Assembly (NCBI GenBank): GCA_902605215.1 | Contig: CACLBX010000001.1 | Coordinates: forward strand, 1-35,503 | DNA: 35,503 nt | Source: an uncultured Pelagibacteraceae bacterium | GTDB lineage: Bacteria > Pseudomonadota > Alphaproteobacteria > Pelagibacterales > AG-422-B15 | Direction: 5' to 3' | Shown here: positions 3,731 through 10,526 of the stretch, one piece after another | Layout of the letters: the number at the start of each line of letters is the position of its first letter | How positions within the stretch are numbered: the stretch's first letter is position 1 | Made by a program: the position numbers and the translations under genes | Notes under the pieces: model-generated | What the model was told of the DNA's origin: nothing | The model's database searches: none | Seen by the model: the letters and a program-made list of their open reading frames with translations, nothing else

Positions 3731-4990
3731 TTATTTATTCATTGATTGAAAGAAATCGGCGTTGTCTTTTGTTTCTTTCAATTTACCAAGCAAGAATTCA
3801 ATTGAATCCATAGTTCCCATTGGGTTAAGAATACGTCTCAATACATACATTTTTTGCAGCTCGTCTTTATCGAGAAGGATCTCCTCTTTTCGAGTACCAG
3901 ACTTGGTTATATCAATAGCAGGATAAATTCTCTTATCAGCGACTTTTCTATCCAGTATAATTTCTGAGTTACCTGTTCCTTTGAATTCCTCAAAAATAAC
4001 TTCATCCATTCTACTTCCTGTATCAATAAGTGCAGTAGATATAATCGTTAAAGAACCACCATCTTCGATGTTTCTTGCGGCTCCAAAAAATCTCTTTGGT
4101 CTTTGCAGTGCATTGGCATCAACACCACCAGTTAAAACTTTTCCTGAACTGGGAACAACCGTGTTGTATGCACGGCCTAGTCTTGTGATGGAGTCAAGTA
4201 AGATCACAACATCTTTTTTATGCTCCACTAATCTTTTAGCTTTGTTAATAACCATTTCTGCAACTTGTACGTGGCGTGATGCTGGCTCATCAAAAGTTGA
4301 ACTGACTACTTCACCTTTCACAGAACGTTGCATGTCTGTCACTTCCTCAGGTCGTTCATCAATTAACAACACCATCAAGTAACACTCAGGATGGTTGTCT
4401 GTAATAGAGTGCGCAATATTTTGCAGTAATACTGTTTTACCTGTTCTTGGAGGTGAAACTATAAGAGCTCTTTGACCTTTACCGATTGGTGAAACCAAAT
4501 CAATAACTCGTGCACTTTGATCTTTATCGGGCTTTTCTGTTTCAAGCTTAATTTGTTCATCAGGATATAGAGGTGTTAAGTTATCAAAGTTAATTTTATT
4601 TCTACTTTTTTCAGTTGCTTCATAATTGATTGTGTCAATTTTTAATAACGCAAAATATCGTTCACCTTCCTTAGGGGCTCTGATAGGACCTTCAACTGTA
4701 TCTCCCGATCTTAATCCAAACCTTTTAATCTGGCTGGGACTAACATAAATATCATCTGGACCCGGCAAATAATTTGCCTCCATTGATCTGAGGAAACCAA
4801 AGCCGTCTTGTAAAACTTCAAGTACACCTTCTCCGTCTATGTCCTTCTTATTTGAGGCAAGAGATCTTAATATCTCAAACAACATATCTTGTGTACGCAT
4901 AGAACTTGCGTTTTCAACGCCCGTTTCTTCAGCATATTTTAGAAGTTCTTGTGGAGTTTTTTTCTTAAGTTCTCTTAATTTTAAGCTCAT
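3731..4990 (-). CDS. rho: Transcription termination factor Rho
   Basis: Full-length; [27 protein letters not shown] (Walker A), [25 protein letters not shown]. Confidence 0.98.
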
Positions 4991-5073
4991 ACTGTTTTAA
5001 ATTTAGGATAAGTTTTTTTTGGAAAGTGTAAAAGAATGTGACTTCTAGCTTTAATTTCTGAATCTGGCAAGTT

Positions 5074-5517
5074 TTAAATTGGCTTAAATATTACTAAAAA
5101 TACAATAATTATCATCAAAACTGTGGGAAATTCGTTAATTATTCTATAAAAACGCTCTGATCTTGCACGCTTGTCTTGCTGGAACTCCTTCGTAATTTTA
5201 GCTAAATAACCATGTACTCCTGATAAAAGCAGTACAAAGAGAACTTTTAATTGTAGCCAAAGTGCACTTAATGACTCCACACCCAATGTGGAAATAAGAG
5301 CTATGCCAAATAACCAGGAAAATATCATAGCAGGGTTCATGATTATTCTGAGCAAGCGTATTTCCATTAATTTGAAAGTTTCAGATGTTTCAGAACCTAT
5401 TTCTTTTGTAAAGTGGTAAACAAAAAGTCTTGGCAAATATAAAAGTCCAGCCATCCATGCAATCACACTGATGATGTGTAAACTCAAAAATAAATTATAT
5501 AAAAATATGCTATTCAT
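5074..5517 (-). CDS. hemJ: HemJ-type protoporphyrinogen oxidase (membrane protein)
   Basis: LHIISVIAWMAGLLYLPRLFVYH N-terminal motif, about four TM segments, next to hemH/hemE. Confidence 0.88.
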   Translation of the reverse strand: MNSIFLYNLFLSLHIISVIAWMAGLLYLPRLFVYHFTKEIGSETSETFKLMEIRLLRIIMNPAMIFSWLFGIALISTLGVESLSALWLQLKVLFVLLLSGVHGYLAKITKEFQQDKRARSERFYRIINEFPTVLMIIIVFLVIFKPI

Positions 5518-6533
5518 TATATTTGCTGATAGCAGCGTTTAAATGTCGTTGGACAAATTTTTTCAGCAATATTTGCATTGCTCGTCTGGTCTGATTTGGC
5601 AACTATTTCAACTAAACTATCTATAAACACAGAATCAATGTTTAAAGACTCTGAACGAAAATAATGTTTGTAACCCATTTTGTCTGCCATTTCTTTATAT
5701 TCAATATCAAGCTCTACTAGAGTTTCAGAGTGATCTGAAACAAAAGCAATCGGAACAATAATAATAGCTGCATCTTCTTTAATCGCTTTTTCAATCTCAC
5801 TTGGTGTGGATGGTTCAAGCCACTTAACAGGTGTCACCTTGCTCTGATAAGCTAATACGTGATCGTCGTGTCCTTTAAGTCCTTTCATGACAGCATTTAC
5901 AGTTTGTTCAACCTGCCATTGATACGGATCGCCACCCTTGATAATTGAGACAGGCAGGCTGTGGGCAGAAAATAAAATCCTAATCTTTTTATCTTTAATG
6001 TGATCTATTTTCTTTTGTATTAAACTCTGATGAGACTCAATAAATTTCTTATCCATTGGATAACAGCAAGTGTATTTTGTTGGTGCTGATAATCTTTGTT
6101 TCTTTGCCTCTTTAAACCAAAGATCTAAAGAAGATTTGGTGGTTGTGGTTGAATATTGAGGGTAAAGGGGAAGTAAGAAAATATTATCTGGATTGTAATC
6201 TTTCACCCCTTTAACGATTTCGGCTGTCATTGGATGCCAGTATCGCATACACACAAACACCTTGGAGGATATACCTTGTGTTGCCAGGGCCCCTTCAAGT
6301 GCAGCGGCCTGATCGTTTGTAATGTCTAAAATGGGCGATTTACCTCCAATTTCAGAATATATTTCAGTTGCTTCCTTTGTCCTCAAAGTCGATATCAATT
6401 TTGCTAATAAGAAGCGAAACGGATTCGGTAACTTGAATATGTTAGGATCATTGAAAAGGTTGAATAAGAAAGGTCTCACACTTTCTTGTTTGTCGGGTCC
6501 ACCCAAATTAAATAATACTACTGCTGTCTTCAT
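5517..6533 (-). CDS. hemH: Ferrochelatase
   Basis: AVVLFNLGGPD, FSAHSLPVSIIKGGDPYQWQVEQT, PIAFVSDHSETLVELDIEY. Confidence 0.97.
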   Translation of the reverse strand: MKTAVVLFNLGGPDKQESVRPFLFNLFNDPNIFKLPNPFRFLLAKLISTLRTKEATEIYSEIGGKSPILDITNDQAAALEGALATQGISSKVFVCMRYWHPMTAEIVKGVKDYNPDNIFLLPLYPQYSTTTTKSSLDLWFKEAKKQRLSAPTKYTCCYPMDKKFIESHQSLIQKKIDHIKDKKIRILFSAHSLPVSIIKGGDPYQWQVEQTVNAVMKGLKGHDDHVLAYQSKVTPVKWLEPSTPSEIEKAIKEDAAIIIVPIAFVSDHSETLVELDIEYKEMADKMGYKHYFRSESLNIDSVFIDSLVEIVAKSDQTSNANIAEKICPTTFKRCYQQI

Positions 6534-7513
6534 TTTGCTCTTATTGTGTTTACAAGTTCTTCTACTTTCTTAATTGAAGTGTTTGGTAATACTCCATGCC
6601 CAAGATTAAAAATATGTGCTCTATCTTTAAAGGCAATTAATATTTTATCCACCTCTTCTTGCAAGATATTGTTCTCTGCCAATAAGGCTGTTGGGTTTAG
6701 GTTTCCTTGAAAGGCAACGTCTGGGTTTAGTTTGTTGATATGATCCAAATCAAAATCGTAATCTAAGCTTATACAATCAAGCTTATCTATATTTGAATAT
6801 TTCACATATCCTTCCTTACTTGTTTTTCTTGGGAATCCAATAACTGGTATGTCTGTTTTACTCTTTATCAAATGAATAATTTTTTGTGTAGGTTTTAGGC
6901 ACCATCGATCAAAATATTCATCTTCAAGATCTTCAGCCGCAGACTCAAATATTTGAAATGCATCAATGCCCGCATTTATTTGTTGTACTGCGTAATTAGA
7001 AATTATGTCAGTTAGATCTTCGATGTGAGTGTTTATTTTTTTTTCATTTTTATGAATGAGACCTTTGTTCATCTGTGATCTTTCTTCTTTATCAAACAAA
7101 CAATATAACAGCGTTGTCCAGGGTCCGCCTACAAAACCTATTAAAGGAACTTCAGATACTTTTTTGATGTTTTCAATACCTTTTGTAACCGGGTCCAGCT
7201 TGTGTGATGCAAAATTAAATTTCCCATTAAATTTAACTTGGGGACCTACACCTTCTTTAAAGCTAACATCACATCCAGATGCATAGGGGATCATCAATAT
7301 ATCAGAAAACACTATGCATGCGTCCAACCCGTATCTCTTCACGGGCTGAAGTGAGATCTTGGTTACCACCTCAGGATCAAGAAACATTTCCATAAGGTCT
7401 TTATATTTTTGTCTTATTTTAATATATTCAGGTAAGTGCCTTCCCGCCTGTCTCATTAACCAAATGGGGGTTTTTGTTTTATTGCCTTTTAGCGTTTCTA
7501 TAAGAATACTCAT
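6530..7513 (-). CDS. hemE: Uroporphyrinogen decarboxylase
   Basis: PIWLMRQAGRHLPEY, FSDILMIPYASG, GFVGGPWTTLLY, NLGHGVLPNT. Confidence 0.98.
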   Translation of the reverse strand: MSILIETLKGNKTKTPIWLMRQAGRHLPEYIKIRQKYKDLMEMFLDPEVVTKISLQPVKRYGLDACIVFSDILMIPYASGCDVSFKEGVGPQVKFNGKFNFASHKLDPVTKGIENIKKVSEVPLIGFVGGPWTTLLYCLFDKEERSQMNKGLIHKNEKKINTHIEDLTDIISNYAVQQINAGIDAFQIFESAAEDLEDEYFDRWCLKPTQKIIHLIKSKTDIPVIGFPRKTSKEGYVKYSNIDKLDCISLDYDFDLDHINKLNPDVAFQGNLNPTALLAENNILQEEVDKILIAFKDRAHIFNLGHGVLPNTSIKKVEELVNTIRAK

Positions 7514-7788
7514 ATAATATATATATAAGGTAGTATTAGTTTATGTACCTGTGATGATGTGTATATATAAAAACCTCTTACTTGCCCACAAATCAATACA
7601 TGTCTTTAACGTGGATATTTAGAGCATTTGTGATATTACCCACAAGGCAGAATAATGATTGAGGCATTATCCACAGGTGGATGAAAAGCAAGAAAATATA
7701 GGATAAAAAGGCCAAAATATTGTAAATGTTTAAAAACAGTAAACATATAATATATATCCACACTGATTACTCAGGTTGTTAATAGCTT
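7514..7788. other. oriC: Candidate chromosomal replication origin (oriC)
   Basis: Divergent hemE/maf gap; perfect DnaA box TTATCCACA 7667-7675; near boxes TTACCCACA 7636-7644, ATATCCACA 7754-7762, TTGCCCACA 7582-7590; AT-rich runs at both ends; matches alphaproteobacterial ori gene context. Confidence 0.8.
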
Positions 7789-8391
7789 ATGAACACACAA
7801 ATATCACTAGCGTCTAAAAGTCAAACACGCTCAAGACTTTTAACAAATGCCAAAATAAAATTTAAAACAGTTGATCACGGTGTTGATGAGGATGAAATTA
7901 AACTATCCATGTCAGAAAGTTCGCCAGAAGAGATTGTTACAAAGCTGGCTGAGATGAAAGCTTTAAAGGCATCTATATCAAATGATGGTTTGGTTATAGG
8001 ATCCGATCAAGGATTAGACCTAAATGGGAAGCTGGTTAATAAGGCAAAAAACTTTGATGAAGCTCACGAACAACTAAAGAGCATGAGTGGAAAGGAACAC
8101 ACCCTTGTAACAACCACGGTAGTAGCTAAAGAAAACAATATAATGTGGAAATATGTTGATAGAGGAAAAATGAAAATGAGAGTACTTGATGAAAAAGTCA
8201 TTAAAGAATACCTAGAGAGTGTTGATGAAAAGATACTTGGCTTAGTCGGGGTTTATGCAATTGAAGAGGAAGGCATAAAACTATTTGAGTACGTCGGTAG
8301 TGATTTATTTTCAATACAAGGAATATCAATGATACCATTAACTCAATTTTTATGGGACAGCGGGCTGTTGTTTAAAAGTAATGGCCATTGA
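7789..8391 (+). CDS. maf: Maf-family nucleotide pyrophosphatase
   Basis: ISLASKSQTRSRLLTNAKI, IGSDQGLDLNGK, GVYAIEEEGIKLFEYVGSDLFSIQGI. Confidence 0.93.
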   Translation: MNTQISLASKSQTRSRLLTNAKIKFKTVDHGVDEDEIKLSMSESSPEEIVTKLAEMKALKASISNDGLVIGSDQGLDLNGKLVNKAKNFDEAHEQLKSMSGKEHTLVTTTVVAKENNIMWKYVDRGKMKMRVLDEKVIKEYLESVDEKILGLVGVYAIEEEGIKLFEYVGSDLFSIQGISMIPLTQFLWDSGLLFKSNGH

Positions 8392-9208
8392 TAAAACGGC
8401 AGTTATAGGATTCCCAGTCGATCACAGCCTTTCACCAATTATTCACAACCACTGGATTAAAGAACTGGCGCTGGGCATAAAGCCATATGAAAAACTTAAT
8501 GTAGATCCAAACATGTTTGAAGAGCAGATGAATAACTTAAAGGCCGAAGGCTTTGGAGGAATTAATGTTACAGTCCCACTCAAAGAGCTTGCGTTCAATA
8601 TTAGCGATGAAACATCTAACGTTTCAAAAAAACTCAGGTCAGCCAATACTCTTACTCTAAGATCTGACAAAATAAATGCTGACAATACTGACGCCGTTGG
8701 TTTCATTAATTCTTTAGATAAGAAAACAATAGAAGAAAATATTACTAACAAAAAGACACTTGTTCTTGGCGCCGGGGGCTCCGCCAGGTCCGTCGTTCAT
8801 GCGTTAAACGAATTGGGAAGCCAGGTGAGATTGTTTAACAGAACACCTGAAAAAGCAGCGATTTTGCTTAATGATTTATCAATAAACTCAAGTCCCGTAA
8901 GTACAGAAGAGCTGGATGATTACGTTAACTCCTCATCGTTCATTGTTAACGCAACTAGCCTTGGGCAAAAGGAAGGGGAGCATAATAATATTTTGAGTTT
9001 TGAAAATATAGGAATGGAAACATTTATTTATGATTTAATTTATAATCCTAAGCGATCCAGTTTTTTAGAACAAGCGGAAGCAAAAGGTTTAAAAGTTCAA
9101 AATGGATTACGCATGTTAATTGAACAAGCAGCTTGCTCTTTTCAGATATGGCATGAAATTAAAGTGGGTGTTAGTGGCGAATTAATGTCACTATTGGAGA
9201 ACGTGTAA
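8381..9208 (+). CDS. aroE: Shikimate dehydrogenase
   Basis: AVIGFPVDHSLSPIIHN, GINVTVPLKE, NTDAVGF, VLGAGGSARSV, NATSLGQ. Confidence 0.97.
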   Translation: MAIDKTAVIGFPVDHSLSPIIHNHWIKELALGIKPYEKLNVDPNMFEEQMNNLKAEGFGGINVTVPLKELAFNISDETSNVSKKLRSANTLTLRSDKINADNTDAVGFINSLDKKTIEENITNKKTLVLGAGGSARSVVHALNELGSQVRLFNRTPEKAAILLNDLSINSSPVSTEELDDYVNSSSFIVNATSLGQKEGEHNNILSFENIGMETFIYDLIYNPKRSSFLEQAEAKGLKVQNGLRMLIEQAACSFQIWHEIKVGVSGELMSLLENV

Positions 9209-9831
9209 TGTTGTTGATAGGTGTAACAGGATCCATTGGCATGGGAAAATCTACAGTCGCTAAGATGTTTACCGAGTATGGTTTTGGCCTCTACAATGCA
9301 GATGATACCGTTCACTATATTTATGAAAACGATGAAGAAGTAATTAATAAAATTGAAGAGTCTTTTCCTGGAACTAAATCAGAGGGAAAAGTAAATCGAA
9401 TTGCGCTTAGAGACATACTTAATAAAGAACCTGAGAAGTTTAGAGATCTTGAAAAAATTGTACATCCAGCTACCAGACGGTATCAAATCGTATACATTGA
9501 GAAATTAATAAGCGAAGATAGCCCAGGATGTATTCTGGATATTCCTTTATTATTTGAAACAGGTGGAGAAAAGTATATCGATGTTTCGGTTGTGGTGACA
9601 GCATCCGAAGGTAAGCAAAAAGAAAGAGTGGTCGCAGAAAGAAAGGTGCCTTTAGAAATTTTTAACTCGATAAAGAATCAACAAATGCCAGACCGAGAAA
9701 AATTAAAGAAAGCAGACTACATAATCTCAACAGATCAAACTTTAGATGAGACAAAACTCGAAGTAAAAGATGTTGTATCTAAAATAAAATTGATTAATCC
9801 TAAGGCATGGAAAGCCTTCTATAAGAAATGA
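9208..9831 (+). CDS. coaE: Dephospho-CoA kinase
   Basis: IGVTGSIGMGKSTVAKMF (P-loop), LDIPLLFETGGEKYIDVSVVVTA. Confidence 0.96.
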   Translation: MLLIGVTGSIGMGKSTVAKMFTEYGFGLYNADDTVHYIYENDEEVINKIEESFPGTKSEGKVNRIALRDILNKEPEKFRDLEKIVHPATRRYQIVYIEKLISEDSPGCILDIPLLFETGGEKYIDVSVVVTASEGKQKERVVAERKVPLEIFNSIKNQQMPDREKLKKADYIISTDQTLDETKLEVKDVVSKIKLINPKAWKAFYKK

Positions 9832-10526
9832 GAGAAATCGTTCTAGATACAGAAACTACAGGCCTGAGACCTTCTGAGGGTCATAGAGTGATTGAAATTG
9901 CAGCCATTGAATTAGTTGATTTTTTGCCGACAGGTAGGGTTTATCAACAATATATCAACCCAATGAGGGACGTTCCAGAAGCCTCTTTTAAAGTTCATGG
10001 ACTGAGTTATGAGTTTTTAAAAGATAAGCCGTTGTTTGAAAAAATTGCTGACGATTTTCTCGACTTTGTTGGACAAGATACGATCATTGCGCACAATGTT
10101 GATTTTGACATCGGCTTTTTAAACCATGAACTTAGCGCATGCGGGAAAGAAAGTATCAAAAATAAAAAAGTGGATACCGTATCTATTGCAAGAGAAAAGT
10201 TTCCTGGTCAAAGCGTGTCGCTAGATGCTTTATGTAAGAGATTTTCCATTGACAATAAAGAGAGAGAAATACACTCAGCTACAATTGACACGGAACTTCT
10301 TGCAAGAGTTTACATAGAACTCATGGATGCCCGTGAGCTAAGTCTTGATCTAAACGTTAATAATCAAAAAGCTAGTACTGAGTCAAATTTTGATATTCAA
10401 AAGATTCAAAATAGAGAACTCGCAACAAGACTAACAGACGACGATAAAGAGTTGCACAAAGTTTTTGTTGAGACACTTGGTGAAAACGCTATCTGGAAAA
10501 AGAAAGAGCAATATAATAATGAATGA
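9828..10526 (+). CDS. dnaQ: DNA polymerase III epsilon subunit
   Basis: REIVLDTETTGLRPSEGHRVIEIAAIE (ExoI), HNVDFDIGFLNHEL (ExoII), HSATIDTELLARVYIEL (ExoIII). Confidence 0.95.
   Translation: MREIVLDTETTGLRPSEGHRVIEIAAIELVDFLPTGRVYQQYINPMRDVPEASFKVHGLSYEFLKDKPLFEKIADDFLDFVGQDTIIAHNVDFDIGFLNHELSACGKESIKNKKVDTVSIAREKFPGQSVSLDALCKRFSIDNKEREIHSATIDTELLARVYIELMDARELSLDLNVNNQKASTESNFDIQKIQNRELATRLTDDDKELHKVFVETLGENAIWKKKEQYNNE

Follow-up and report, generated by a model that had tools for sequence, protein, structure and literature searches.

The hemE/maf intergenic region as the probable chromosomal replication origin of a SAR11-order bacterium, with a conserved hemE-proximal core

Introduction

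Chromosomal origins of replication bordered by hemE have been described in several Alphaproteobacteria. In Caulobacter crescentus the origin (Cori) lies between hemE and COG1806, and parS is located within 8 kb of it (PMC4468827). The origins of Rickettsia and Wolbachia are hemE-linked as well, and in other lineages the CtrA sites known from Caulobacter are variable or absent (PMC1914354). A further element described at bacterial origins is the basal unwinding system (BUS), composed of a DnaA box, a spacer and DnaA-trios, the last being single-strand DnaA sites with the motif 3'-GAT-5' (PMC8287927). For the SAR11 order (Pelagibacterales) a literature search found no description of the origin; one replication study inferred the terminus from coverage (PMC9589681). 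The order includes some of the most abundant cells in the ocean, and metagenome-based estimates of growth depend on the positions of both origin and terminus.

The DNA analysed here, referred to as the window, comprises the opening 35.5 kb of contig C1 in a draft genome (G000; 874 kb, 45 contigs, 53% complete). Its close relatives include single-cell genomes listed under Pelagibacteraceae or Pelagibacterales. A preliminary description of this sequence had pointed to the gap between the divergent genes hemE and maf as the likely oriC. Here, this gap was compared with the corresponding gaps of relatives within the order, and it is very probably the oriC of this SAR11-order bacterium, a positional orthologue of the origins found beside hemE in Caulobacter and Rickettsia.

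Results

Gene order around the gap

The gap is 275 bp long with a GC content of 29%, and it extends exactly from the ATG of hemE to the ATG of maf (Table 1). The order rho-hemJ-hemH-hemE-gap-maf-aroE-coaE was found in 19 of the 21 members of the order examined, with single genes below detection in a few, and dnaQ follows coaE wherever the examined stretch reaches that far. On the rho side, the genes of the same-genus genome G015 continue as mnmE-gidA-gidB-parA-parB (named from the start of the protein sequences). In the sister family (f2), COG1806 lies between the gap and maf, as in Caulobacter, and this Kinase-PPPase gene adjoins the gap in the closed genomes G038, G040 and G043. A search for Kinase-PPPase (COG1806/DUF299) in seven members of family f1 (G000, G006, G015, G020, G063, G066 and G068), some of them 98–100% complete, found it in none. 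The Caulobacter-like flanks proposed earlier are present on both the rho/hem and the maf-aroE-coaE-dnaQ sides, but they do not fully match the Caulobacter set, as COG1806 is missing here.

Departures from this arrangement were few. In genus g2 of the sister family (G036 and G039), hemE is divergent and far from parS, and in G036 a distance of 19 kb separates COG1806 from parS. In this genus, hemE has apparently been relocated to a place remote from the origin. In G007, G031, G032 and G034, hemE, maf and a convincing rho are jointly missing, which is read as a missing stretch of assembly and not as gene loss.

A parS site with at most one mismatch was detected in all genomes searched except the fragmentary G000, once per genome and twice in G043. 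Nearly all contigs that are long enough have it on the rho side, at 7–10 kb from hemE. The exceptions are G040, with parS on the maf side at a distance of 17 kb, and genus g2 with its displaced hemE; in genera g5 and g6, three draft loci had none within the stretch examined. The contig carrying the window ends short of this distance on the rho side.

Table 1 Features of the hemE/maf region. Positions are those of the window.
Feature	Position	Strand	Basis or conservation
rho, hemJ, hemH, origin-proximal cluster	3731–6533	−	Gene annotation and synteny
hemE, left border of origin	6530–7513	−	TIGR01464 above cut-off
Proposed chromosomal oriC, hemE/maf divergent intergenic region	7514–7788		DnaA-box cluster, constant length, parS proximity, skew pivot in closed relatives
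AT-rich stretch ATAATATATATATA at hemE end, proposed unwinding element	7514–7527		TATATA (7522–7527) invariant in 33 gaps; adjoins TAG triplets; putative function
TAG-TAT-TAG, candidate DnaA-trios (single-strand DnaA sites)	7531–7539	+	Strand bias of TAG in relatives and published trio motif; putative function
Weak reversed DnaA-box-like pair	7550–7566	−	ATCATCACA (7550–7558), 4 mismatches; ATATACACA (7558–7566), 2 mismatches
Invariant weak box TTGCCCACAA	7582–7591	+	Same in 33/33 gaps of genus; contains TTGCCCACA (7582–7590)
Weak box ATATCCACG, 2 mismatches	7610–7618	−	Present, not conserved
DnaA box TTACCCACA, ≤1 mismatch	7636–7644	+	Retained in most of sublineage A only
Perfect DnaA box TTATCCACA	7667–7675	+	TTATCCACA or TTATCAACA in sublineage A; replaced (e.g. 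TCTCTAACA) in sublineage B
2-mismatch site TCATCCACC	7676–7684	−	Box scan of gap; additional to the five boxes of the preliminary description
Second AT-rich stretch, 75–88% AT	7690–7753		Sequence poorly conserved between sublineages
DnaA box ATATCCACA, ≤1 mismatch	7754–7762	+	Retained in sublineage A; genus-wide only CACA (7759–7762) invariant
maf, aroE, coaE, dnaQ, right border cluster	7789–10526	+	Gene annotation and synteny; maf itself 7789–8391

Two further observations concern the surroundings of the gap. Between rho and the contig end (309–3673), the window encodes two similar, probably secreted proteins of ~300 aa and a 510-aa protein with repeated domains; the matching place in G015 (213168–214998) encodes two relatives, differing in length, and this may be a variable surface-gene spot adjoining the origin. 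At the loci L009, L010 and L039–L041 among the relatives, Maf is 97–99% identical to that of the window and HemE only 74%, while the gap is nearly the same (window 6530–8391). This combination points to recombination, with the junction at the origin or close to it.

DnaA boxes in the gap

All five DnaA boxes that had been named in the gap were found in place, together with two additional 2-mismatch sites on the minus strand (ATATACACA and TCATCCACC), and the boxes form a cluster beyond chance. The gap contains three boxes with at most one mismatch, against 0.16 expected from composition-matched Markov shuffles (p = 0.0003), and seven with at most two mismatches, against 1.8 expected from Markov shuffles (p = 0.001). 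As the ten boxes with at most one mismatch in the whole window are at chance level (11.8 expected), the signal is a local cluster in the gap. DnaA itself is encoded on the same contig, which extends beyond the window (dnaA at C1:72126-73472), and it has a DHTT recognition motif.

The boxes stressed in the preliminary description are present in the window and turn over between the two sublineages of the genus: the perfect box at 7667 is confined to sublineage A, and the gaps of sublineage B are almost without any box at one mismatch or less. Boxes are enriched in the sister family too, where they read TTATNNACA, counted at 3.0 across 18 gaps against 0.31 expected, and many origins of this family read TTATTCACA on the minus strand at the position of the reversed pair (7550–7566). 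Scanned over whole genomes, TAGTWGTWGTWG alone is not specific to the origin.

Conservation of the gap and its core

The length of the gap is 271–277 bp in 33 distinct gaps of the window's genus, and it is kept though HemE drops to ~57% identity between the two sublineages. It is 275–287 bp in other genera of the family and mostly 258–292 bp, up to COG1806, in the sister family, where one gap was called as 238 bp with an upstream TTG taken as the start. Alignment of the genus (14 gaps of sublineage A and 19 of sublineage B) disclosed a block at 7540–7600 in which 41 of 61 columns are invariant between A and B, with far fewer elsewhere in the gap. Runs invariant in all 33 gaps are TATATA (7522–7527), GTTTATG (7539–7545), TGTG (7550–7553), TGTGTATATATA (7558–7569) and TTGCCCACAA. 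The best-conserved part of the origin thus adjoins hemE, and is not the perfect box at 7667. Of 97 relatives searched with a core pattern made of the 7558 block and TTGCCCACAA, 38 had a single match each, always at this locus, and all 38 belong to the window's genus; the pattern never matched in the reversed control and had no copy in viral contigs.

The block at 7540–7600 sits 27–87 bp upstream of the hemE start, and its conservation might be mainly that of a hemE promoter and leader, not of an initiation element, even if the whole gap is oriC; the Caulobacter origin also holds a hemE promoter, and the two functions can overlap. However, a consensus promoter scan, by which alphaproteobacterial promoters may be missed, gave no hemE site in the block and a single plus-strand hit against 2.5 by chance. 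Promoters are not characterised by TAG triplets, a C-rich spacer or a reversed box, all of which are seen again in the sister family, and the block matched no Rfam family. No RNA family, tRNA or terminator was found when these were looked for in the region. A role mainly as promoter and leader is considered unlikely for the block.

AT-rich stretches and TAG triplets

AT-rich stretches had been noted at each end of the gap, and both are real, with 70–78% AT at 7514–7560 and up to 88% at 7714–7753. Next to the hemE-proximal stretch, the triplet TAG shows a strong strand bias: within the first 60 bp beside hemE in 57 origins, which are related and not independent sequences, TAG occurs on average 1.9 times and CTA 0.05 times, that is, on one strand. 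The TAG count in the window by itself is not beyond chance. In genera g7–g9, TAG is repeated three to four times consecutively, followed by TTGT, a C-rich spacer and the reversed box. On these sequence features, the hemE-proximal block at 7522–7591, with its TAG-type triplets, reversed weak box and TTGCCCACAA, resembles an unwinding module of DnaA box and DnaA-trios.

Skew, gene orientation and alternative positions of the origin

The closed relatives G038, G040 and G043 were sampled in twenty 20-kb stretches each, and the origin was fitted with the terminus forced opposite. The best fit was 0.8 kb from the gap in G038 and 31 kb away in G043, while in G040 the gap lies on the best-scoring plateau; permutation p values of the GC skew for an origin at hemE were 0.0002 (G038), <0.0002 (G040) and 0.049 (G043). 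In four same-genus contigs (from G015, G020, G006 and G005), genes on both sides point away from the gap on average, and the minimum of cumulative skew and orientation is 37–39 kb off on the rho side, the gap being only slightly higher. GC skew, suggested earlier as a check and applied here to relatives, pivots together with gene orientation near the gap in G038 and G040 and more weakly in G043, but its minimum is displaced in the four same-genus contigs. Gene-strand corrected GC and AT skew at fourfold sites gave no reproducible signal, the sole nominal extremum (G015, p = 0.017) having the opposite sign, and therefore the skew switch is mostly one of gene orientation.

The displaced minimum arises from a conserved gene block whose members are directed toward the gap (G015:C1 209180-247000 and the three other contigs). 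Taken at face value, the crude skew and orientation minima in these four genomes would place the origin elsewhere in the rho-side domain, for example at the tsaD-hemC divergence ~38 kb away. Yet the minimum reflects that local run of genes in reversed orientation, in G015 the intergenic DNA at this place is ~100 bp long and has no box cluster, parS is nearer to hemE than to this minimum, and the offset does not occur in the closed G038 and G040. Such a position is very improbable, and it was rejected as the origin for the reversed-gene block and the lack of a box cluster.

In many other bacteria the origin is upstream of dnaA. Among the genomes compared here, dnaA and hemE are 60–70 kb apart. 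The window's genus and G040 have dnaA on the maf side, genus g3 has it on the rho side; these opposite sides fit inversions symmetric about the origin and are taken as a sign of them. If replication started in the rpsT-dnaA gap, ~65 kb off, the hemE/maf gap would be no more than a region of divergent promoters whose transcription DnaA regulates. The rpsT-dnaA gap, too, is long (316–323 bp), 75–81% AT and of near-constant length in four genomes; dnaA scores slightly above hemE in the skew fit of the closed G043, and the closed G040 record starts at dnaA. Against this, boxes with at most one mismatch number 0, 0, 0 and 1 in the rpsT-dnaA gaps of four genomes, with no cluster, hemE is favoured over dnaA by skew in G038 and G040, parS is near hemE in G043 too, and in the same-genus contigs the crude skew minimum and dnaA lie to different sides of hemE. 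Without a box cluster and with the weaker skew, the rpsT-dnaA gap was rejected, and an origin there is judged very improbable.

Discussion

The hemE/maf gap is assigned as oriC because of synteny, the proximity of parS, the skew of closed relatives, the constant length of the gap and a genus-specific core that occurs once per genome, and on the same grounds the reading of the preliminary description is supported. The locus is an ordinary hemE-linked alphaproteobacterial origin, and what is refined here is the location and conservation of its core.

From this arrangement a course of initiation can be proposed. DnaA would load on a small number of boxes spread over the 275 bp, most of them weak and particular to a lineage. 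A conserved hemE-proximal module, comprising the reversed weak boxes at 7550–7566, a short C-rich spacer, the TAG triplets and the AT tract, would guide DnaA onto single-stranded DNA, and the duplex would open beside the hemE start. The helicase would load at the opened duplex, forks would depart both ways, and the parS on the rho side would let ParAB segregate the new origins. Whether the unwinding site is the one described here is, in our estimate, an even question.

For the SAR11 family, we tentatively propose an origin of fixed length with a hemE-proximal unwinding core (TAG triplets and, in the genus, the invariant weak TTGCCCACAA), around which consensus boxes come and go from one sublineage to another, a generalisation we hold to be possible though somewhat short of probable. 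If it is true, initiation in much of the genus would depend on weak boxes alone. The gap between hemE and COG1806 or maf, together with parS, is a fixed anchor in almost every genome examined, which allows origins to be called even in drafts and offers a natural series for the turnover of DnaA boxes around a stable, putative unwinding core.

Among known systems, the sister-family SAR11 origins (f2, closed genomes such as G037–G048) share the gene order, the length class of the gap, parS, the TAG triplets and a reversed box ~42 bp from the hemE start; they differ by retaining COG1806 and by boxes that read TTATNNACA (TTATTAACA, TTATAAACA and similar). The likeness to the BUS lies in the reverse complement, which reads box, GG, CTACTACTA and AT tract, in the published order and strand and most clearly in g7–g9 (PMC8287927). 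Under the strict published rule, a DnaA box with at most two mismatches has at least three NAN triplets no more than 16 bp away; a gap of genus g8 (L198) fits it by eye, with ATAACCACA, GG and CTACTACTAC in the reverse complement. The window differs in its short triplet run (TAG-TAT-TAG), which 10 bp separate from a 4-mismatch box and 18 bp from the closest box with at most two mismatches, and is borderline for this rule.

The Rickettsia and Wolbachia origins are likewise bordered by hemE, AT-rich, poor in DnaA boxes and conserved only among close relatives (PMC1914354); their other border is COG1806 in Rickettsia and COG1253 in Wolbachia, and here it is maf. With Caulobacter Cori the gap has in common the hemE border, weak DnaA boxes and, in its relatives, parS within 8–10 kb (PMC1914354, PMC4468827), and its TTGCCCACA is a weak box in the way that the Caulobacter W-boxes are. 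It differs in having maf as border in place of COG1806, in its length of 275 bp and in another box consensus, and no CtrA (TTAA-N7-TTAA, strict), IHF or GANTC site was found in the gap of the window. Having the hemE border, and lacking COG1806 on the other side, the gap is placed as a derived positional orthologue of Cori rather than as a canonical Cori.
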